Of a DNA stretch of 60,465 bases, positions 34,298-45,875 are shown in pieces. The notes beneath the pieces are model-generated. The model made no database searches and was not told where the DNA came from. It saw only the letters and a program-made list of their open reading frames with translations. The number at the start of each line of letters is the position of its first letter. Positions within the stretch are counted from its first letter, which is position 1. Origin of the DNA: a virus; IMG/VR virus record IMGVR_UViG_3300028025_001549, positions 1-60,465 of that record, one strand, 5' to 3'. A program made the translations under genes and the position numbers.

Positions 34298-34586
34298 ACA
34301 TCTTGCGAAACCTCCATTCGTTGTAGTTGAGAATCGCAAAACAGGAGTTGACGCAATAAAGTTGACTTCTGGACCGTATTCAGGTATAATTTATACTTAC
34401 GGTAAAGTGAAGTTTGATGAACAAGATGATGGTACTTGCAAACTTTGCTTTGAGTATGACGTCATAGAAAATGAACAAGAGTATGTTGCTGAAGAGTTTG
34501 AACACTACATCGGCGACTTGCTTCAGTTTATTATGATGGACCAACTACAGAAAAACAATATTACTTACACTGGCGGAACTGAATGA
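34290..34586 (+). CDS. hypothetical protein between uvsX and gp41
   Basis: A 98-residue acidic protein (GVDAIKLTSGPYSGIIYTYG, then FEHYIGDLLQFIMMDQL). Small genes at this exact place occur in T4-like cyanophages. It overlaps uvsX and gp41. A consensus promoter for gp41 lies inside it. Function unknown. Confidence 0.65.
   Translation: MSEHLAKPPFVVVENRKTGVDAIKLTSGPYSGIIYTYGKVKFDEQDDGTCKLCFEYDVIENEQEYVAEEFEHYIGDLLQFIMMDQLQKNNITYTGGTE
34362..34390 (+). promoter_or_regulatory. sigma70-type promoter inside the gene before gp41
   Basis: TTGACT (34362-34367), 17 bases, TATAAT (34385-34390). It is placed to start a separate transcript for the gp41 helicase. Confidence 0.6.
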
Positions 34587-35977
34587 GAATTGAAACAAAG
34601 ATTTTAAGTAATCTTGTATATGATGAACAGTATTGTCGTAAAGTAATTCCCTTTATTAGAACTGATTATTTCTCTGAACGAAAAGAAGCAATCCTTTCTA
34701 AGATTATTGTGGAGTTCTTTACGAAGTATAACAAACCATTAACAAAAGAGATCCTATCAATTGAGGTAGGAAACCGAACTGATATCAACGACAAAGAACT
34801 TGCTGAGATTAATAGTTATGTAGATACAATGACTCACGAAGAAGTTAATGAGTCATGGATGTTGGAACAAACAGAAAAGTTCTGTAAAGATAAGGCAGTC
34901 TATAATGCAATTCTACACTCGATCCGAATCATTGATGGCGGAGATAAAGTTAACACCAAGGATTCCATTCCTTCTATCCTTTCTGATGCTCTTGCCATCT
35001 CTTTCGATAATCACGTTGGCCACGATTACATCGAAGACAGCGATGCACGTTATGACTACTATCACCGAGTTGAAGAAAAGGTTCCATTCGATCTAGACAT
35101 GTTTAACAAAATCACCAAAGGTGGTTTGTCCAAGAAAACTCTTAACATTGTTTTGGCTGGTACTGGTGTTGGTAAGTCTTTGTTTATGTGTCACGTTGCA
35201 GCTGGAGTATTGACTCAGGGTAAGAACGTGCTTTACATTACTATGGAAATGGCTGAGGAACGTATCGCTGAACGTATCGATGCGAACTTGTTGAACCTTA
35301 CCATGGATGAGTTGAAAGTTATTGATAAAGATATCTTTGATAATCGTATCAAGAAGATCTCTAGTAAGACGCAAGGTAAGTTAATCGTTAAAGAATACCC
35401 AACTGCTGGCGCACATGCTGGTCACTTTAGAGCATTGCTTGAAGAGTTGAAGTTGAAGCGTGAGTTTCTTCCTGATATTATCTTCATTGACTATCTGAAT
35501 ATTTGCGCAAGTCAGCGAATGAAGCAAGGTGGAAGTATTAACTCTTATACATATATTAAGTCCATCGCTGAAGAGTTGCGTGGTTTGGCAGTAGAATATA
35601 ATGTTCCGATTGTTTCAGCCACACAAACTACTCGAAGTGGATTTACAAATAGCGATCCAGGTTTGGAAGATACTTCTGAATCATTTGGATTACCTGCCAC
35701 TGCTGACTTAATGTTTGCGTTAGTTTCAAATGAAGAACTTGAACAGTTGAATCAAATTATTGTAAAGCAATTGAAGAATCGTTATAATGATCCTAGTTTT
35801 TATAAGAGATTTGTTATTGGTGTTGATAGAGCAAAGATGAAGTTATATGATGTTGAAGCGTCTGCTCAAGTAGGTTTATCTGATTCTGGTCAAGTTCAAG
35901 ATGATGTACCTATGTTTGATAAGAGCGAATTTGGTAAACGACAAAAAGCAGAAGCATTCAGTGGGTTTAAGTTTTAG
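34583..35977 (+). CDS. 41: gp41 replicative helicase (DnaB-like)
   Basis: A 464-residue RecA-fold hexameric helicase. Helical N-terminal domain, Walker A AGTGVGKSLFMCHVA near residues 191-205, YITMEMAEERIAERIDANL, Walker B DIIFIDYLNI, and SATQTTRSG. The C-terminus resembles T4 gp41 (GKRQKAEAFSGFKF). It unwinds DNA ahead of gp43 with the gp61 primase (54859). Confidence 0.95.
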   Translation: MRIETKILSNLVYDEQYCRKVIPFIRTDYFSERKEAILSKIIVEFFTKYNKPLTKEILSIEVGNRTDINDKELAEINSYVDTMTHEEVNESWMLEQTEKFCKDKAVYNAILHSIRIIDGGDKVNTKDSIPSILSDALAISFDNHVGHDYIEDSDARYDYYHRVEEKVPFDLDMFNKITKGGLSKKTLNIVLAGTGVGKSLFMCHVAAGVLTQGKNVLYITMEMAEERIAERIDANLLNLTMDELKVIDKDIFDNRIKKISSKTQGKLIVKEYPTAGAHAGHFRALLEELKLKREFLPDIIFIDYLNICASQRMKQGGSINSYTYIKSIAEELRGLAVEYNVPIVSATQTTRSGFTNSDPGLEDTSESFGLPATADLMFALVSNEELEQLNQIIVKQLKNRYNDPSFYKRFVIGVDRAKMKLYDVEASAQVGLSDSGQVQDDVPMFDKSEFGKRQKAEAFSGFKF

Positions 35978-35986
35978 GAGAATAAT

Positions 35987-37348
35987 ATGGTAAAAGTAAT
36001 TGTAGCTGAAAAGAAAATTGATTGCTCACATTTGTTGGGTAAATTTGTTGATGAATCACATTATGATATTCTTGTTGAAGAAGATTGTGATGTTTACGCA
36101 CCACCAAACTGCGACCTAGCAACTCAAGCTGAGTGTAATGTTCCAAAAGATTGCGGGACTTGTGCCACAGGCGCAGACGAACACCGAATTGTATTTAAAT
36201 TCCGTAAAAACTATTTTAGTAAAGAACAACAAGATGCAGCATACGCTGGACTTAGAGAAGCAGCTATTCGCACAGAGAATCGTGGACTTGCTTCTGGTAT
36301 CAAAGATGGCATTGTTGCCACTTCAGAAGGTCGTGAGTGGGTTACCAACTACCAACAAGAAATGATGGAGCAGTTGATCAAGAATCGTAACTCATCTCTT
36401 GACAACGAAGACGTCATTGAAACTATCCGTGGAAAGTATCCACGTGAAGTAGATAAGAAAATGGCTGGTGGTAGCGGTAAGAATAACGTATGGGTCATCT
36501 CACGTTTCCGTGGTAAGTTTGATTTCGAAGCATGGTTGGATTCTATCAAACCAATGAATCGTCAAGAACGAGCAACTGCCACTGAAGAAGTATTGAAGAT
36601 GGTAAGTACCACTACCTATGGCACTGCAGTTAATTCTGGTATTGCTGGTTGGTTCGATCGTTATCCACGCATTCCTTATGGTCGTGCTACTTCTTATACA
36701 CGTGATAATCCAGAGAAGTTTGCTATGGCATATCCATTCTTACAAAATCTTGCCAAAGGTTTTAAAGATCTCCTGCCATGGCGTTATAATAATCAAATGC
36801 AAGCTGCAGAGAAACTAGACCCACGTTTCTTGGTTCCTGGAACTCCATTCACAACTATCACTGTGAACAAAACATTCCGAACTGCAGCCCACTATGACGC
36901 TGGTGATTTAAATACTGGTCTATCTAATCTATTGACTTTGTCAAATGACGGTAATTATACTGGCGGATATTTGATTGCTCCAGAATATCGTGTTGCGGTA
37001 AACGTAAGACCTGGAGATTTGTTATTGATTAACAACCATGAAGTTATGCATGGTAATACTGAAATCAAATGTGCTGAAGGTTCTGAGCGTGTATCATTGG
37101 TATGTTATTTCCGTGAGAAGATGCTAGAACTTGGGTCACATGAATATGAAGACACTCGCTATAACTTTGTTGAATCGCGTAGACTAAACAAAGAACATCC
37201 ACTTTGGAAACCCCTGTGGAATGGTGTATCTGAATCTATGTGGGACAGCCAAGAATGGTATGACTATTGTGAAGACAAACTTGGTCGCGAAGAGTTAATG
37301 AAGTATCACCCAGAAGCCAATGCTTCTTCACTAGAAAGTTTCTTCTGA
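35987..37348 (+). CDS. TET/JBP-type DNA base oxygenase
   Basis: A 453-residue protein with the TET/JBP branch of 2OG-Fe(II) oxygenases. Residues ~80-105 contain RTENRGLASGI; the core has FTTITVNKTFRTAAHYDAGD (H302 and D304), YTGGYLIAPEYRVAVNVRPGDLLL, NNHEVMHGNTEI (distal H355), and ERVSLVCYFREKM (R368 for 2OG). The N-terminal ~65 residues are Cys-rich (C35, C43, C50, C57, C60), which could be a metal site. TET enzymes oxidise 5-methylcytosine and JBP enzymes oxidise thymine in DNA. It heads a run of seven genes that fit a DNA hypermodification pathway. Ribosome site TTAGGAGAA. Confidence 0.85.
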   Translation: MVKVIVAEKKIDCSHLLGKFVDESHYDILVEEDCDVYAPPNCDLATQAECNVPKDCGTCATGADEHRIVFKFRKNYFSKEQQDAAYAGLREAAIRTENRGLASGIKDGIVATSEGREWVTNYQQEMMEQLIKNRNSSLDNEDVIETIRGKYPREVDKKMAGGSGKNNVWVISRFRGKFDFEAWLDSIKPMNRQERATATEEVLKMVSTTTYGTAVNSGIAGWFDRYPRIPYGRATSYTRDNPEKFAMAYPFLQNLAKGFKDLLPWRYNNQMQAAEKLDPRFLVPGTPFTTITVNKTFRTAAHYDAGDLNTGLSNLLTLSNDGNYTGGYLIAPEYRVAVNVRPGDLLLINNHEVMHGNTEIKCAEGSERVSLVCYFREKMLELGSHEYEDTRYNFVESRRLNKEHPLWKPLWNGVSESMWDSQEWYDYCEDKLGREELMKYHPEANASSLESFF

Positions 37349-38052
37349 TGTGTTCAGTCATTGGTGCTTTGATTCAGAATCCTACTTCAAAAGATTTTGA
37401 AACTATCCGTAAGGTATTCCTTGAGTCTAAGATTCGAGGAATGCACGCAACAGGTATGTCTGTCATTTATAATGGTAAGGTTCTAACATTCAAAGAGCCA
37501 GTTCCTGCTGATAGATTTGTGCATTTAGATGATTTAGAGGAGATGGTTAATGATGACGGTAATCTTTACCTTATTGGTCACTGTAGATATTCTACTAGCG
37601 ATTTATTGTATAACCAGCCGATAGCAAATGAAGAACACTCTATTGTTCACAATGGGGTTATTACTCAAGAACTAGCAGAGAACTGGGATAAGTTATTCAA
37701 CTACAAATGTGAAACAAAGAATGATTCTGAATTAGTATTACATTCTGATTCACCTCTTGAAGAATATACTGATGCATCAATGGCTGTTTGTGAACTAACT
37801 GTGGATAAGAAACTTCTTGCATATCGTAACGGTAAGCGTCCATTATACTTGACTTCTTTAGTGAATGGCGTTATAATTACTTCTACTGCGGATATTCCTA
37901 AACGTGCAGGTATTAAAATGCCAGCAGTTGAGATTCCAATGAATACATATATTACATTTGATGAACGTATGACAATGAATGTTCAAGTTGTTCAAACAAC
38001 AAAAACTGATTTACAAAAGGTAGATTATGAATCTCAAACCATATCCAACTGA
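37348..38052 (+). CDS. class II glutamine amidotransferase
   Basis: A 234-residue Ntn-type amidotransferase. The second residue is Cys (MCSVIGALI), the nucleophile after Met removal; RGMHATGMSV, GHCRYSTS, NQPIANEEHSIVHNGVI and NDSELVL follow the GATase II pattern. It releases ammonia from glutamine for a partner enzyme. It overlaps the TET/JBP gene by one base (TGATG) and the amidoligase by 26 bases. GATase II plus amidoligase pairs are known in phages and bacterial surface-modification loci. Confidence 0.88.
   Translation: MCSVIGALIQNPTSKDFETIRKVFLESKIRGMHATGMSVIYNGKVLTFKEPVPADRFVHLDDLEEMVNDDGNLYLIGHCRYSTSDLLYNQPIANEEHSIVHNGVITQELAENWDKLFNYKCETKNDSELVLHSDSPLEEYTDASMAVCELTVDKKLLAYRNGKRPLYLTSLVNGVIITSTADIPKRAGIKMPAVEIPMNTYITFDERMTMNVQVVQTTKTDLQKVDYESQTISN
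37849..37877 (+). promoter_or_regulatory. sigma70-type promoter inside the amidotransferase gene
   Basis: TTGACT (37849-37854), 17 bases, TATAAT (37872-37877). It could raise expression of the amidoligase and acetyltransferase genes. Confidence 0.5.
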
Positions 38053-38911
38053 TAAATTTACTTACGGAATGGAAATAGAGTGGGGTGATATTCCTCGCTC
38101 TTTTTCAATTCCAGAACATCTCGGCACTTGGGAATTCTCAGAACGAGATATTATTAATCTAAGAGAGCCATATCAATATGTCTGCGCTGACCCACTTGGT
38201 ATCGATCCTCCATTCGGTGGTGAGATCAACACGAAACCGACTAGAACTTGGGAAGAACAAGTTGATCGGTATTTTGAACTTCAAAAACTATTCACAGATA
38301 ATGGTACTCCACCTACAATTGGTGCTACTGCTCATACACACATTCATTGTCGTGTGCCTAATCTACGTGATGATATCGATGCACTGAAGCGTCTAACCAA
38401 ATACATTAAAGAAAACCAACACGATACTGTAGAGAACGTATATGGTTACTTTGAGCACAATCAAATGAAAGGTGCCAAAGGCGCAAAGATGTATTTGAAG
38501 TTTGATGGTGGTCGTACTCTTCCAGATTATATGGCAGATAACATCATCAATCTAGCAACAGACTTTCCTTCATTCATTAAGATGCACGCTGCAGGTAAAG
38601 ATGGAGTGTCAATGGGTCGCCCATTCCGATACGCTATTAATATGTACGCATTGAAACATATCGATACTGTAGAGTTTAGATTGTTTCGTGGAACAATGGA
38701 TCGTACTCAATTAGAATCTTGCTTTAGATTTGTTCAAGACTTCCTCGATGCTGCGCTGAACGATGGTCAAAGTGTTCTTGAACTAATCTCAAATAACAAT
38801 TATACTTTCCCTCCAATGATTTGGGAGTTGAATCAGTTTATTGGCTGGGAGAAAACTAAACATCCAGAAGATCGTGGAGAAAAGGTAAGAACTTATGTTG
38901 AAGTTGTCTAA
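38027..38911 (+). CDS. amidoligase (COOH-NH2 ligase family)
   Basis: A 294-residue protein of the amidoligase_2 type with a glutamine synthetase-like fold: FTYGMEIEWG at the start (the Glu-x-Glu metal pair), TGATAHTHIHCRVP-like region near residues 100-115, and VEFRLFRGTMD near residue 210. Family members join an amine to a carboxyl group using ATP. Encoded between a glutamine amidotransferase and a GNAT acetyltransferase. It could form an amide on a modified base or on a peptide; the sequence does not say which. Confidence 0.85.
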   Translation: MNLKPYPTDKFTYGMEIEWGDIPRSFSIPEHLGTWEFSERDIINLREPYQYVCADPLGIDPPFGGEINTKPTRTWEEQVDRYFELQKLFTDNGTPPTIGATAHTHIHCRVPNLRDDIDALKRLTKYIKENQHDTVENVYGYFEHNQMKGAKGAKMYLKFDGGRTLPDYMADNIINLATDFPSFIKMHAAGKDGVSMGRPFRYAINMYALKHIDTVEFRLFRGTMDRTQLESCFRFVQDFLDAALNDGQSVLELISNNNYTFPPMIWELNQFIGWEKTKHPEDRGEKVRTYVEVV

Positions 38912-39449
38912 GTGTTCCCGTGCTGAATTTATCTCAAGTATAGATCAGACGAATCCACTTGATAACTTTGCCAGAACATTTGTTGCCAAAGCAGATATGC
39001 AAGACCAATGGGATTATTGTATTGGTGTATATGATGGTAATGATTTAACTGCTGCAATTATTACCACAATATCAAAGACCAAACCTCATGTTGCCAACCT
39101 TCAACTCTTACACACATTTGCAAAACATAGAGGTAAAGGTTCTGCTAGAATTCTATGCGAGGATTCGTTAAAACGTGCCAGAACAAATGGGGCTACATAT
39201 TATAGGGTGTCCTCTGAGAAACCTGCAGTGGGGTTTTACGAGCGTCTGGGGTTTAAGTTTTGGGGAGCCCAAAAGAGCGGATGCTCCCTATCGGTCTTTA
39301 GAATAGGGGGAGATACCTTCTTAGAGGGCGACTACGACCTCTCCGACACGACTATCAATAAAGCGGTCAACCGTAAGGGTAAAGGGGGTTGTACGACCTT
39401 CTACGACCTTGCAAACACCCAAAATAGGGTCAAAATAGACGATTTTTGA
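38895..39449 (+). CDS. GNAT acetyltransferase
   Basis: A 184-residue protein. The GNAT core spans residues ~40-130: acceptor strand YCIGVYDGNDLTAAIIT, acetyl-CoA loop HRGKGSARILCEDSLKRA (the RGxGxA motif), and YRVSSEKPAVGFYERLGFK. The last ~50 residues fall outside the GNAT fold and use GC-richer codons than the first part. The gene overlaps the amidoligase by 17 bases. It could acetylate the amine added by the modification pathway. Confidence 0.82.
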   Translation: MLKLSKCSRAEFISSIDQTNPLDNFARTFVAKADMQDQWDYCIGVYDGNDLTAAIITTISKTKPHVANLQLLHTFAKHRGKGSARILCEDSLKRARTNGATYYRVSSEKPAVGFYERLGFKFWGAQKSGCSLSVFRIGGDTFLEGDYDLSDTTINKAVNRKGKGGCTTFYDLANTQNRVKIDDF

Positions 39450-39461
39450 GTCAAATATCGC

Positions 39462-39490
39462 TTTACTTTTATTGCGAAATAGGGTATAAT
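39462..39490 (+). promoter_or_regulatory. CGCTTTACTTT-class promoter
   Basis: TTTACT (39462-39467) in ATCGCTTTACTTTT, 17-base spacer, TATAATAG. It drives the ParB-like to P-loop kinase half of the modification cluster. No clear hairpin precedes it, unlike the other four of this class. Confidence 0.75.
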
Positions 39491-39523
39491 AGTGGTTGTA
39501 ACAATTGAAAATGGAACTATATC

Positions 39524-40810
39524 ATGAAACACACTACAAAATTTTATCTATATGCATGGTTAAAACGACAACCATATACAGTTAATATGGGAAAGAAGGT
39601 TTCGCAAAAAACTTCTTACGTTTCATCAGCATCATCACAAGAGTTCTGGAATGATTTTGGTAATGCCAAACTAGAACAGTATTGTATTTTTGAATCTGAT
39701 GATGAAGCAGTTGTTAGTGCATCTGAGTGGTGGGGACTTGATTATGGTATGAAAGTTTTGGGTAAAAATAAATTCTACAACAAGGTCAACAATGCCCATC
39801 GTGGCGACCAATCGTTAGTAACAGAAGAAATCAAACAGAAGATAGTTGACTTCTATGAAGGTAAATTGAAGCCAGAAACAACTACTGATACATTCTCACT
39901 TGGTAGGAATATTATTGACAAGGTTGAGAATGGTTTTTACCCAGTCATTCAATATCCAGTATACAAACTGGTTGAATTACAACGTAACCAAGCACGGGCG
40001 ATTGAACAGAATGTCACTACTGAAGACCAGATTGTTCGAGCATATAATGACTCACCAGAACAAGTGTTGCGTGATATCACTCCAGCAACATTAGTGAAAC
40101 GTCCAGATGGTAGTCTTGAAATTGTTAATGGCCATACTCGAATTGGTGCTGCTTCTAGATGTCGTGGATGGAATGAGATTCCTGTTTGTATAATAGAAGA
40201 ATCTGACTTTGGTGACACGAAAAAAGATATCGCTATTAATATCTTGCTCGCTGGTAGTTATGCTAATCGCCGAAGTCCAGTCATTACTAAAGAAAACACT
40301 GATGAAGACCTTATGTTCCAGATGGAAAATTATCTGGTAATTCAGGAGATGGATGCTTCTGTTGAAACTGCTCAAGAGTATATCAGAGAAGTTCTTACTG
40401 CTGAGTTTACAAAGAGCGCAGGTTCTAAAAGGGCAGCATCAGGTATTGTTACTAAGATTTTTAACAAGTACGAGAAACAGAAAAATGAAATGTCAATCAC
40501 TAAGAACATGATTGTTTATAGTGATTCTGAACTGCGTGATTATTGTTATAAGAAATATGAGAAGCGTGGCATCGCTGCTGTTCACTCAACTATGAGTAGC
40601 ATGGCTCACTTTGACCCACTTGGTTTTATCTTCCATCACTCAAGTCATATGAATACTCTCCCTAAGAAACTCGCTATTGTACTTCACTGTAGGACAAAAG
40701 ACGAATATGTAAAAGGACAAGCTGCTGGTAAAGTTACCGCAATGCAAAGGGTCATCGATGGCTATAAACTACCTGTCGTGATTGATGTTTTACCTTCCTT
40801 TGAAGAATAA
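39524..40810 (+). CDS. ParB/Srx-fold domain protein
   Basis: A 428-residue protein. The middle (about residues 180-230) has LVKRPDGSLEIVNGHTRIGAASRCRG-type sequence followed by IPVCIIEES, the ParB N-terminal domain pattern (GHTRIxAA in place of GRHRLxAA). The N-terminal ~130 and C-terminal ~190 residues match nothing I know. ParB-fold domains bind CTP or cut or bind DNA and recur beside predicted base-modification enzymes. It overlaps the next gene by one base (TAATG). It could recruit the modification enzymes to DNA. Confidence 0.7.
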   Translation: MKHTTKFYLYAWLKRQPYTVNMGKKVSQKTSYVSSASSQEFWNDFGNAKLEQYCIFESDDEAVVSASEWWGLDYGMKVLGKNKFYNKVNNAHRGDQSLVTEEIKQKIVDFYEGKLKPETTTDTFSLGRNIIDKVENGFYPVIQYPVYKLVELQRNQARAIEQNVTTEDQIVRAYNDSPEQVLRDITPATLVKRPDGSLEIVNGHTRIGAASRCRGWNEIPVCIIEESDFGDTKKDIAINILLAGSYANRRSPVITKENTDEDLMFQMENYLVIQEMDASVETAQEYIREVLTAEFTKSAGSKRAASGIVTKIFNKYEKQKNEMSITKNMIVYSDSELRDYCYKKYEKRGIAAVHSTMSSMAHFDPLGFIFHHSSHMNTLPKKLAIVLHCRTKDEYVKGQAAGKVTAMQRVIDGYKLPVVIDVLPSFEE

Positions 40811-41826
40811 TGGATTACAGACAACCACAAAATAATAGAGAAGCGTTCATCCGCTGGTACGCATGGTCATTAAAGTATGATGACTGTGACCCAGCTGTTT
40901 GGGCAACGAACTACCTCAACAAACGCTACGAGCATAATGATGAACAACGTCTTTGGCTTGCGTGGCTTTACGGTAACACTTATCAATTACCAACTGCGTG
41001 GGTATTGATGAATGAATTTCCTGATTATGAATTAGCAACAGTTGATAGAATTACGCAATGGAATACTACAAACTACAAACGACTGCGTTACCAAACTGAT
41101 ACAAAGTGGAACAAGGGGCATCTACCTGCCATGTTTGCTTCTTATCAACAGTTCATTGGTAACAGAACACAACGAGAAAGAATGGAAGGTTTTTATGGAG
41201 ATAATGAGGAAGCAAACTTTGATAACTTGTGGGAAAGCGTTAAGTCTGGGCTGCATAAGTTTGGTCGCTATTCCACTTGGTTTTATCTTCAGCATCTTAA
41301 GCATACCGCTGGTATTCGCATCAGCCCTACTAGTCTCATGCTGGATGATTATGATGGCTCTCGCTCTCATCGTAATGGATTACTTTGCGCCCTCGGCAGA
41401 CACGACGATATGGATAGAAAACTCAATGCAGGCGAGTATGCAACTCTTGAGCACGAAGCCAGATCTATTATCACCGAAACCAAAGATAGATTCCCAGATT
41501 TGGAAGCGCAAATAGATTTCTTTACAATGGAAACCTGCTTATGTTCATTCAAGAAAATCTTTAGAGCACACCATGGTCGTTACCTTGGATATTACCTAGA
41601 TCGTCAGGCTGAAGAGATTATCAAAGCTGAGGGTGATGGTTGGTATGGTATTGATTGGGATGTCCTTTGGCAAGCAAGAGATGAAACTATTGACTTACGC
41701 TTGGATAACAAAAGAGGAATTGATAAAGAAAAGTTTCCTGCATTTATAAATTCAGGTAGAATAGAAAACTTGGAATGGATGTTTGATGATGAAGAACCTA
41801 TGTTGATTGGATTGGAGAATTTTTAA
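40810..41826 (+). CDS. candidate alpha-glutamyl/putrescinyl-thymine pyrophosphorylase-like protein
   Basis: A 338-residue helical protein rich in Trp, Tyr and Arg. Phrases EQRLWLAWLYGNTYQLPTAW, W..TNYKRLRYQTDTKWNKG, and SRSHRNGLLCALGRHDDMD (about residues 182-200) resemble the family that comparative genomics linked to phage hypermodified thymines, the pyrophosphorylase clades and the related helical part of 5-hmU DNA kinases. I rely on pattern memory, so the family call is moderate. Its neighbours, a ParB-like protein, a P-loop kinase and a TET/JBP oxygenase, are the expected company. Confidence 0.55.
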   Translation: MDYRQPQNNREAFIRWYAWSLKYDDCDPAVWATNYLNKRYEHNDEQRLWLAWLYGNTYQLPTAWVLMNEFPDYELATVDRITQWNTTNYKRLRYQTDTKWNKGHLPAMFASYQQFIGNRTQRERMEGFYGDNEEANFDNLWESVKSGLHKFGRYSTWFYLQHLKHTAGIRISPTSLMLDDYDGSRSHRNGLLCALGRHDDMDRKLNAGEYATLEHEARSIITETKDRFPDLEAQIDFFTMETCLCSFKKIFRAHHGRYLGYYLDRQAEEIIKAEGDGWYGIDWDVLWQARDETIDLRLDNKRGIDKEKFPAFINSGRIENLEWMFDDEEPMLIGLENF

Positions 41827-42248
41827 TGGCTATTACTAAAGGACAATTTGGTGGATTGACTGGTGCGATTTATGATGATATGAATAGTAGTGTAACTATT
41901 TCATCACCAATGATGGGTAGCGCAAGCACAATTACTACCAGTTCTAATATCACACCAATGCGCACTCCGACTGAAGTTATTCTAGATCGTTATCAGTTAA
42001 ATGAAATCACTGTTCAGCATCGAGTTCAAGAGTTTGAACTTATGAAACTGCGTGAAAGTAATGTAGATTATGCTACTGAGATTAAACAAAATCTAGCCAA
42101 GTGGGCTTCAGAAGAAGTTACTAACAAGATGACCTTTACTAAAAAGACAGAAATAAACACAGATACCCATTCTTTCCGTGGACGTGTATGGGTCTTTAGT
42201 AAAGAAGAACTAATTAAAATGATTGAGGAAATTAGAAATGGCATTTAA
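41826..42248 (+). CDS. hypothetical protein in the modification cluster
   Basis: A 140-residue protein. The first ~50 residues are Ser/Thr/Met-rich and probably disordered; the rest has a helical part (NEITVQHRVQEFELMKLRE) and a strand-helix ending SFRGRVWVFSKEELIKMIEE. No family recognised. It overlaps the upstream gene by one base and the kinase by 11 bases, so it is bound into the cluster. Confidence 0.6.
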   Translation: MAITKGQFGGLTGAIYDDMNSSVTISSPMMGSASTITTSSNITPMRTPTEVILDRYQLNEITVQHRVQEFELMKLRESNVDYATEIKQNLAKWASEEVTNKMTFTKKTEINTDTHSFRGRVWVFSKEELIKMIEEIRNGI

Positions 42249-42849
42249 TGAAAACGTGGGTGTAGTTGACACCATCAAAGTAGAAAGGGTAACTAATGCT
42301 ATGAAGACCAGAAAGATTATCGCAGTTGGTGGCTCACCTGGAACTGGCAAGACTACTTTGTTTCGTAAGTTTATGGAAGATAAAACTTGGCTAGAAGTTT
42401 CCCCTGCCAAGTTGGTAAATGCCAGTTACAATACCGAGAGAGATTTATACATCCTTGGTAAGTATGATGATGGCGAAGTATTCGCTGGAACTGACCGACT
42501 ATCCATGGCAGTTCAACCACCTCTTCAAGAATGGGTCGCCTCCCATAATTGTAATATCCTTTTCGAGGGAGATCGGGTTTTTAACCAATCATTCCTAGAG
42601 TTCTGTATGGGTCTCCCAAATACACAATTAGAAGTGGTATTTCTAAAGGCTCCAAAAGATATCCTAGAACAACGCTATAAAGATCGTGGATCCGACCAAT
42701 CTGAGCAATTCCTACGTGGAAGAGAAACTAAATATAGTAACCTGATGTCAAACTTTGATTTGATGCCATATATTACTGAGTTTGCAAACACTAACTTAGA
42801 GGAGCAGACGAAGGTACTTGCTTTTTTGGAGAAGCAATTTATTAGTTAA
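42238..42849 (+). CDS. P-loop kinase (candidate DNA base kinase)
   Basis: A 203-residue protein from ATG 42238 with GAGGAAA in front; an in-frame TTG at 42223 is less likely. Walker A is AVGGSPGTGKTTLF near residues 28-41, then NCNILFEGDRVF as the Walker B-like strand, and a lid-like basic segment QRYKDRGSDQSEQFLRGRETK near residues 147-167. This is the layout of small nucleotide or base kinases. In known phage pathways a kinase phosphorylates a hydroxymethyl group on a base in DNA before an amine replaces it. The last gene of the cluster. Confidence 0.72.
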   Translation: MAFNENVGVVDTIKVERVTNAMKTRKIIAVGGSPGTGKTTLFRKFMEDKTWLEVSPAKLVNASYNTERDLYILGKYDDGEVFAGTDRLSMAVQPPLQEWVASHNCNILFEGDRVFNQSFLEFCMGLPNTQLEVVFLKAPKDILEQRYKDRGSDQSEQFLRGRETKYSNLMSNFDLMPYITEFANTNLEEQTKVLAFLEKQFIS

Positions 42850-45428: not shown

Positions 45429-45875
45429 ATGAACGAATTAACAACTGCAATTAAAGTTTTGCTGGCTAATGCTACTGTAATGTATTACAAAGTGCATCAG
45501 TTCCATTGGAATATAGAGGGTATTGAGTTCACTCAGTACCACGAGTTCTTTGGCGATTTATATGCTGAAGTTTATGGATCAATCGATCCAACTGCAGAAT
45601 GGCTACGCAAGTTAGATGAATATGCTCCAGTAAGTATGGATGAGTTATTCAAATATAAAACATTAAAAGAAGAATCTCAACGTGTTGAGAAACTTGAAGA
45701 TATATTCGTGAGTCTTATCGCTGCAAACCAAGAAGTCTTGGACAGCCTAAATAAAGTGTTCACTATTGCTAATGCCAATAAACAGCAAGGTGTTTGTAAC
45801 TTTATAGCGGATAGAATAGATACTCATCAGAAGCATGCTTGGTTCTTAAAAGCATCTGCGAAGAAAATAGGATAA
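45429..45875 (+). CDS. Dps/ferritin-like protein
   Basis: A 148-residue four-helix protein with the Dps ferroxidase pattern: YYKVHQFHWNIEGIEFTQYHEFFGDLYAEV (His and Glu/Asp ligands around residues 21-48), then SIDPTAEWLRKLDEYAPVSM. It follows the nucleotidyltransferase gene with no gap. Dps proteins store iron, consume peroxide and coat DNA. In a late block it could protect the packaged genome or the host DNA. A hairpin follows. Confidence 0.88.
   Translation: MNELTTAIKVLLANATVMYYKVHQFHWNIEGIEFTQYHEFFGDLYAEVYGSIDPTAEWLRKLDEYAPVSMDELFKYKTLKEESQRVEKLEDIFVSLIAANQEVLDSLNKVFTIANANKQQGVCNFIADRIDTHQKHAWFLKASAKKIG

Follow-up and report, generated by a model that had tools for sequence, protein, structure and literature searches.

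Here, we present an analysis of eight linked genes in a 60,465-base stretch of DNA (the window), a T4-like phage fragment that forms one virus record, IMGVR_UViG_3300028025_001549, of the IMG/VR database. The phage, a bacterial virus, is known from environmental DNA alone. The eight genes very probably form an operon for the hypermodification of DNA bases, by which thymines in finished DNA would most likely be changed stepwise into bulky nitrogen-containing bases. As the best explanation of the whole, a thymidine-hypermodification operon that acts on polymerised phage DNA by the steps proposed below is likely. Thymidine hypermodification by a TET-type oxygenase, an amino acid:DNA transferase (ADDT) and a kinase is known already; the version with a class II glutamine amidotransferase (GATase) and an amidoligase was met in none of the papers and cultured phages searched. 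A base-hypermodification cluster had been proposed in an earlier, sequence-only reading of the window, and the proposal has gained from the identification of ADDT and kinase and from conserved families, folds and active sites.

The genes are packed on the + strand at positions 35987-42849 in the order TET/JBP, GATase, amidoligase, GNAT, ParB-like gene, ADDT, small protein and P-loop kinase (Table 1), and are flanked by a helicase gene (34583-35977) and an SprT-like gene (42870). They overlap by 1-26 bases almost throughout, and the one real gap, of 74 bases, precedes the ParB-like gene. All frames are intact. Seven of the genes had been named in the sequence-only reading and were found as open + strand frames where it had placed them, so the cluster is real; its count missed the small gene, which overlaps the kinase start. 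The kinase starts at the ATG at 42238; the program-made list of open reading frames (ORFs) has a TTG start at 42223. A search against NCBIfam gave no match above the cut-offs, and nucleotide similarity to isolated phages was limited to a single 247-base match to the TET gene of Caulobacter phage Cr30.

Table 1. Genes of the cassette and their positions in the window (family matches with E values).
Gene product	Position	Strand	Basis of assignment
TET/JBP-type 2-oxoglutarate/Fe(II) dioxygenase	35987..37348	+	PF12851 1.8e-26; phrog_24024 2e-150
Stand-alone class II glutamine amidotransferase (Ntn glutaminase)	37348..38052	+	PF13522 (GATase_6) 1e-8
Amidoligase (carboxylate-amine ligase, glutamine-synthetase-like fold)	38027..38911	+	PF12224 (Amidoligase_2) 0.04, below cut-off; AlphaFold2
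GNAT N-acyltransferase	38895..39449	+	PF13673 7.1e-9; PF00583 3.4e-8
ParB/Srx-like protein, degenerate GIY-YIG-like N-terminus (by eye)	39524..40810	+	PHROG ParB 0.02, weak
ADDT/aGPT-Pplase clade 2	40810..41826	+	PF18724 4.4e-23
Small protein, function not assigned	41826..42248	+	ORF between ADDT and kinase; common, not universal
P-loop kinase, candidate 5-hydroxymethyluracil DNA kinase	42238..42849	+	PF18751 (Ploopntkinase3) 6.3e-7

The ADDT scored 82.7 bits against the PF18724 cut-off of 26.2, and the window thus holds the ADDT/aGPT-Pplase enzyme of the pathway of Pseudomonas phage M6 and Salmonella phage ViI. It matched 376 phage records in a tblastn search, among them ViI-type Ackermannviridae, whose ADDT homologs are 27-28% identical. 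Twenty-three residues, including E45, D97, K102, R153, R188-N189-G190, E223, E241, C245 and K248, are common to the window's ADDT and to ADDTs of GATase-free cassettes, that of a ViI-type phage included. The ADDT sequence found no match in the PDB. The enzyme is proposed to exchange the phosphate of DNA-borne 5-(phosphomethyl)uracil for a nucleophile. With E values of 1e-38 to 3e-36, the kinase profile matched the kinases that neighbour ADDT in Glutamicibacter phage Montesquieu and mycobacteriophage Hangman. P-loop residues G37, G42-K43 and T45 as well as the GTD motif G89-T90-D91 are invariant among relatives; against the PDB, the profile gave P-loop matches only, which are uninformative. The sequence-only reading had made its case depend on the proteins starting at 40810 and 42238; with their identification as an ADDT and a P-loop kinase, the proposal came through this check.

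The TET protein is proposed to be a hydroxylase of the thymine C5-methyl group on polymerised DNA. Human TET2 was the top PDB match of its profile (5e-7), and the 2-oxoglutarate/Fe(II) site, H302-x-D304...H355 with the distal R368, is invariant in an alignment of 22 relatives. The closest TETs of isolated phages, those of Cr30 and Stenotrophomonas phage DLP6, are 43-46% identical over the full length, and identity among IMG/VR relatives falls to about 41-50%. The window and ten relatives of 84-174 kb were searched for a thymidylate synthase (TS)-type hydroxymethylase (PF00303, thymidylate synthase/pyrimidine hydroxymethylase) and for a C5-cytosine methyltransferase (PF00145), and neither turned up in any of them; ThyX is encoded by the window and by 9 of the 10. 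Where the M6/ViI pathway has a TS-type hydroxymethylase for deoxyuridine monophosphate (dUMP), the window has TET in its place, and the linked C5 methyltransferase of a cytosine TET cassette is missing. Because hydroxymethylase and C5 methyltransferase were not found and ThyX is present, TET is most likely the maker of 5-hydroxymethyluracil in finished DNA, and thymine is favoured over cytosine because no C5 methyltransferase was found. The statement of the sequence-only reading that TET supplies the hydroxymethyl group is thereby supported, and its observation that no hydroxymethylase for dUMP or deoxycytidine monophosphate is to be seen agrees with the missing PF00303 enzyme. The simplest and most likely reading is that thymine would enter the DNA in the ordinary way and be hydroxylated there by TET; that thymine is the modified base and owes its hydroxyl to TET is held with good confidence.

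TETs of this family also occur without an ADDT or kinase found nearby (L001, phage DLP6; L003, C48C1; L263, L288, L290 and other loci), and the ADDT-less TETs of many T4-like phages often have glycosyltransferase-like genes in their vicinity. Among T4-like phages, TET probably supplies more than one kind of end product. In isolates, the gene is commonly labelled 'SNF2 DNA repair protein', apparently a misannotation. A ferritin-like gene shortly downstream of the cassette (45429-45875; PF00210, 7.9e-23) could serve as an iron buffer for TET, which depends on Fe(II), or have nothing to do with the cassette.

The GATase has the N-terminal nucleophile Cys and the glutamine-binding motifs of class II enzymes: Cys2, R30-G31, H78-x-R80, H101-N102-G103 and N125-D126 are invariant in 24 relatives, amidoligase-free cassettes included. 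It is the proposed ammonia source of the pathway. The amidoligase had been named in the sequence-only reading and, though its Amidoligase_2 match is weak, the call was confirmed by an AlphaFold2 model built from 21 relatives (pLDDT 86, pTM 0.88). The top PDB matches of the model were YbdK, glutamine synthetase and gamma-glutamylcysteine ligase folds (Foldseek, E about 1e-3 to 1e-2, probability up to 1.00), and its viral structure matches carry an amidoligase annotation. In this glutamine-synthetase-like fold, E16, E18, H105, H107, E216 and R218 are invariant; a sequence search of the PDB with the amidoligase profile gave no match. Only three weak matches to this profile were obtained in 84,980 bacterial and archaeal genomes, which therefore point to no host or cellular source of the amidoligase. 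Among 50,697 phage records, two amidoligases were detected, both distant, and the GATase matches were distant only (24-29%).

Scans of IMG/VR yielded confirmed stretches for ADDT (306), amidoligase (264), GATase (562) and TET (586); the best 80 per scan were kept, and each distinct sequence was counted once for linkage. TET was found upstream of the GATase at 131 of 133 loci, with ADDT (80/80) and kinase (62/62) downstream. The amidoligase has the GATase upstream (98/98) and ADDT (64/64) and kinase (45/45) downstream. The relatives keep the order TET-GATase-[amidoligase-GNAT]-ADDT-kinase with near-complete co-linearity across divergent contigs, which answers the synteny survey suggested along with the sequence-only reading. 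This linkage is far beyond chance, and shared descent contributes to it. At 17 of 66 distinct loci with GATase, ADDT and upstream room, the helicase gene that flanks the window's cassette is not adjacent, and the cassette therefore stays intact in differing genomic surroundings. Homologs of the small protein are common as well (86 ORFs in the first 154 loci and the window); it matched no family above a cut-off.

Within this conserved frame, the tailoring genes vary. GNAT is nearly always the neighbour of the amidoligase and was found after it at 93 of 106 distinct loci. A second large class, made up of 21 of 72 distinct loci, has the order TET-GATase-GNAT'-ADDT-kinase and is free of amidoligase; its GATases keep every catalytic residue, and no other ligase was found there. 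GNAT' has a GNAT fold by structure comparison, and the two profiles show weak similarity only (E 0.0018, probability 15%), so they are treated here as different GNATs with no claim of unrelated origin. A third class combines the GATase with a low-molecular-weight phosphatase-like protein and an amidoligase of diverged sequence. The interchange of amidoligase-GNAT and GNAT' on the ADDT tree takes 18-25 changes by parsimony, at least 10 of which are forced by well-supported branches. Judged by this tree, amidoligase-GNAT is a swappable module that has been exchanged many times for the other GNAT or for other enzymes. The sequence-only reading had taken GATase and amidoligase as a pair; this unit dissolves, as the GATase is kept without the amidoligase, the swapped part. 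GATase-positive cassettes lie apart from five GATase-free ones on the tree, and GATase-specific ADDTs differ from GATase-free ADDTs at positions close to the conserved E241 and C245. By its distribution, the GATase belongs to the core and goes with a single ADDT clade. Altogether, amidoligase-GNAT, GNAT', amidoligase with the phosphatase-like protein, glycosyltransferase with inositol-phosphate synthase, or nothing is found between TET and ADDT-kinase. An action of GATase, amidoligase and GNAT on the base is supported because quite different tailoring enzymes hold this position in relatives.

Further candidates for tailoring were observed in individual relatives. A TET-associated glycosyltransferase occupies the tailoring position in L278, and L285 pairs a glycosyltransferase with myo-inositol-1-phosphate synthase (L285:8333-9541; PF01658, 2.9e-21), an enzyme also encoded inside the TET-ADDT-kinase cassette of Cr30 (L002:17293-18474); an inositol-derived base is conceivable in these two cassettes. 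Several close relatives carry, next to ADDT, a radical SAM enzyme (PF04055, 6.7e-18) that has no counterpart in the window (L010:11017-12510, with a weak B12-binding match; L015; L019:2379-3899; L009:1785-3257; L066:6777-8198). This enzyme, of the B12 type and placed between ADDT and the small gene, may be another optional tailoring step. At the corresponding place before the small gene and kinase, L073 carries a tryptophan-halogenase-like flavoenzyme (L073:10139-11611; PF04820, 7.9e-93), by which a DNA-modification cassette may include a halogenation step. Halogenation as a step common to many relatives was rejected, as a halogenase lies beside ADDT in L073 only.

From the gene content and order, families and folds, catalytic residues, enzyme absences and repeated module exchange, all of which the analysis shows, we infer the following chemical steps and their benefit. 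ThyX would provide ordinary deoxythymidine monophosphate, which is incorporated as T, and TET/JBP would hydroxylate this DNA-borne T at its methyl group to give 5-hydroxymethyluracil. The P-loop kinase would phosphorylate this hydroxyl, and ADDT would displace the phosphate of the resulting phosphomethyluracil with a nitrogen nucleophile. The likeliest nucleophile would be ammonia freed from glutamine by the GATase, yielding 5-aminomethyluracil; the alternative would be a free amino acid, as in M6 and ViI. Using ATP, the amidoligase could then join a carboxylic or amino acid to the 5-aminomethyl amine, and GNAT could N-acylate the product. Amidoligase and GNAT would thereby extend and cap the handle which GNAT' would acylate directly. 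These tailoring steps would be replaceable by the other GNAT alone, by amidoligase with the phosphatase-like protein, or by extras such as the radical SAM enzyme. The likely benefit would be resistance to restriction and other DNA-targeting defences, and the modification probably helps phages to escape bacterial defences.

Several points weigh against this account. The relatives belong mostly to one broad T4-like lineage, and close relatives are preferred by the scans, of which the best 80 loci each were kept; descent thus accounts for some of the linkage. The GATase-free rows of the ADDT tree are few and on long branches, and their placement is rough. The Pfam score of the kinase (29.5 bits) lies just above the cut-off of 27, a modest match. 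A host C5 methyltransferase or another host enzyme could change the picture. The GATase version was found in no cultured phage searched; one search behind this result, which came back empty, had no positive control. Finally, amino acids rather than ammonia are the nucleophiles known for ADDT homologs whose products have been established.

This last point leads to a pathway with the same core in which ADDT installs an amino acid as in M6 and ViI, GATase and amidoligase amidate or extend its carboxylate and GNAT caps the amine, which is roughly the version of the sequence-only reading. It has a real, though less than even, chance of being right. Characterised or annotated ADDT/aGPT-Pplase systems use amino acids, as Lee is said to have reported in 2018 and 2022, and the Pfam family is itself named amino acid:DNA transferase. 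In addition, the GATase and amidoligase ORFs adjoin and overlap, and a glutaminase with a ligase is the classic amidotransferase arrangement. Against it stand the ligase-free cassettes with their catalytically intact GATases, the fact that GATase presence, unlike that of the amidoligase, tracks one ADDT clade, and the divergence of GATase-specific ADDTs near E241/C245. In a ligase-free GATase cassette, the phosphomethyl base is the sole activated electrophile that the cassette can make. Ammonia is favoured as the ADDT nucleophile because the GATase is kept without a ligase and the phosphomethyl base is the cassette's own candidate electrophile; this choice is a tentative one, and an amino acid is nearly as likely. 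The full proposal that the GATase and its dedicated ADDT clade put glutamine-derived ammonia on 5-(phosphomethyl)uracil, that exchangeable modules acylate this handle and that the bases of close phages differ accordingly may be right, with odds somewhat short of even.

Two independent neighbours, TET-ADDT-kinase for DNA and GATase-amidoligase-GNAT for a peptide, the cell wall or a metabolite, are an unlikely explanation. GATase and amidoligase occur in LUZ24-like phages without TET or ADDT found beside them and need not act on DNA, which also counts against the proposed pathway; both were seen in Vibrio phages where no neighbouring TET or ADDT was found, and the modification of the cell wall or of a metabolite is the role guessed in print for such phiEco32/LUZ24-type genes. 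However, in the cassette these genes overlap and lie between TET and ADDT, the amidoligase was seen at no locus of this lineage without GATase (98/98) or ADDT (64/64), and the same slot holds other tailoring enzymes in relatives. Moreover, the LUZ24-type companions (COOH-NH2 ligase type 2, ATP-grasp, GGCT) are not among the cassette genes. Similarly unlikely is a modified cytosine, for which a host C5 methyltransferase would form 5-methylcytosine and TET 5-hydroxymethylcytosine, followed by kinase and ADDT. Phage TETs reportedly act on 5-methylcytosine (Burke, in 2021), and Methylophilales phage Melnitz has an annotated HhaI-type methylase by its TET and a kinase of the same family, which may thus accept hydroxymethylcytosine. 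Cytosine is disfavoured by the lack of a C5 methyltransferase in the window and the ten relatives of up to 174 kb, and the ADDT relatives belong to thymidine pathways. The row of Melnitz itself (L157:4010-8090) consists of the annotated HhaI-like C5 methyltransferase, TET (PF12851, 3.6e-11), a 427-aa protein and the same-family kinase, a possible cytosine hypermodification via phosphorylated 5-hydroxymethylcytosine. That the cassette is decayed or silent, or that the DNA is ordinary apart from traces of 5-hydroxymethyluracil, is very improbable in view of the intact frames, the invariance of catalytic residues across divergent relatives and the hundreds of relatives.

The thymidine hypermodification pathways of M6 and ViI were reportedly proved by Lee in 2018 and 2022, and Iyer is said to have predicted systems of TET/JBP, aGPT-Pplase2 and kinase in general in 2013. 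When present in DNA, 5-hydroxymethyldeoxyuridine is phosphorylated by a 5-hydroxymethyldeoxyuridine DNA kinase and then modified further (PMC6449724). M6, ViI and Delftia phage phiW-14 (Lee et al. 2018, 2022, as cited in PMC6449724) have a 5-hydroxymethyluracil DNA kinase, for which the window has a candidate, and share with the window the aGPT-Pplase/ADDT and tailoring enzymes for polymerised DNA; they reportedly make 5-hydroxymethyluracil at the nucleotide level by a TS-type dUMP hydroxymethylase, where the window has TET instead. Their tailoring enzymes are pyridoxal-phosphate, flavin and radical-SAM enzymes, whereas the window has GATase, amidoligase and GNAT, with radical SAM in close relatives. 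Rhodococcus phage Tonitrus has TET, aGPT-Pplase2/ADDT and kinase (and ParB) annotated as thymidine hypermodification (PMC11955845). Tonitrus, Hangman and Microbacterium phage Kozie share with the window the TET-ADDT-kinase core and the proposed logic of in-DNA thymine hydroxylation, with distant TETs. No GATase was found in Hangman or Kozie, and none is listed for Tonitrus. Kozie has an FAD-dependent DAO enzyme in place of the window's tailoring genes; its genes 1-4 (L158:1-3273), unannotated in the record, encode TET, ADDT, this DAO-type flavoenzyme and a kinase directly before the terminase.

Cr30 resembles the window in its TET with ADDT and kinase downstream and differs in the inositol-1-phosphate synthase, a TS-family gene and the lack of a GATase match. 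DLP6 has TET only in the region examined and no GATase match; its restriction data were not used as a sign of modified DNA, as the sentence on restriction enzymes in the paper is incomplete. Class II GATases and Amidoligase_2 family proteins like those of the window are described for LUZ24-like and phiEco32-like phages (Iyer et al. 2009, as cited in PMC10580990). Unlike the cassette, these modules had neither TET nor ADDT within the parts looked at, their amidoligases are only distantly related to that of the window, and none of their companion genes is found among the cassette genes or immediate neighbours. A full-text literature search, with many journals outside its range, found no amidoligase or GATase joined to a TET/ADDT/kinase cassette. 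The sequence-only reading had regarded the GATase-amidoligase pair beside the kinase as a combination perhaps not yet described as one pathway, and none was found in the literature or cultured phages searched; the core of TET, aGPT-Pplase2/ADDT and kinase (with ParB) had been reported.

If the proposal is true, a TET-initiated, glutamine-fed route is added to the known ways in which phages remodel thymine in finished DNA. Finishing enzymes would then be swapped between close relatives at one locus, as expected from an arms race with modification-sensitive defences. Furthermore, the in-DNA hydroxylase, kinase, transferase, ligase and acyltransferase would form a compact DNA-acting set usable to functionalise DNA. 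The cassette is present in hundreds of IMG/VR viral contigs, yet in none of the cultured phage genomes searched.

The ParB-like gene, which the sequence-only reading had included in the pathway, drops out of it: the gene is present in 18 of 41 amidoligase-class cassettes and missing from 23, and was rejected as a core member since its slot is variable. In relatives, the slot between GNAT and ADDT is empty, with ADDT directly after amidoligase-GNAT, or is filled by HNH-like genes, unrelated ORFs or highly diverged ParB-like proteins whose N-terminus resembles GIY-YIG by eye, and related proteins in it match ParB_N/ParBc_2 weakly (0.006-0.01). The gene is probably accessory, non-core and derived from a mobile nuclease. 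In its behaviour, the slot is an insertion hot spot that takes in genes resembling nucleases (HNH-like, GIY-YIG/ParB-like, restriction-like). Beyond the cassette, T4-like genes recognised in the window are those for a gp23-like head protein, a gp22-like scaffold, gp46/47-like nucleases and a clamp, accompanied by genes for a family B polymerase, UvsX, a DnaB-like helicase, ThyX and a class I ribonucleotide reductase.

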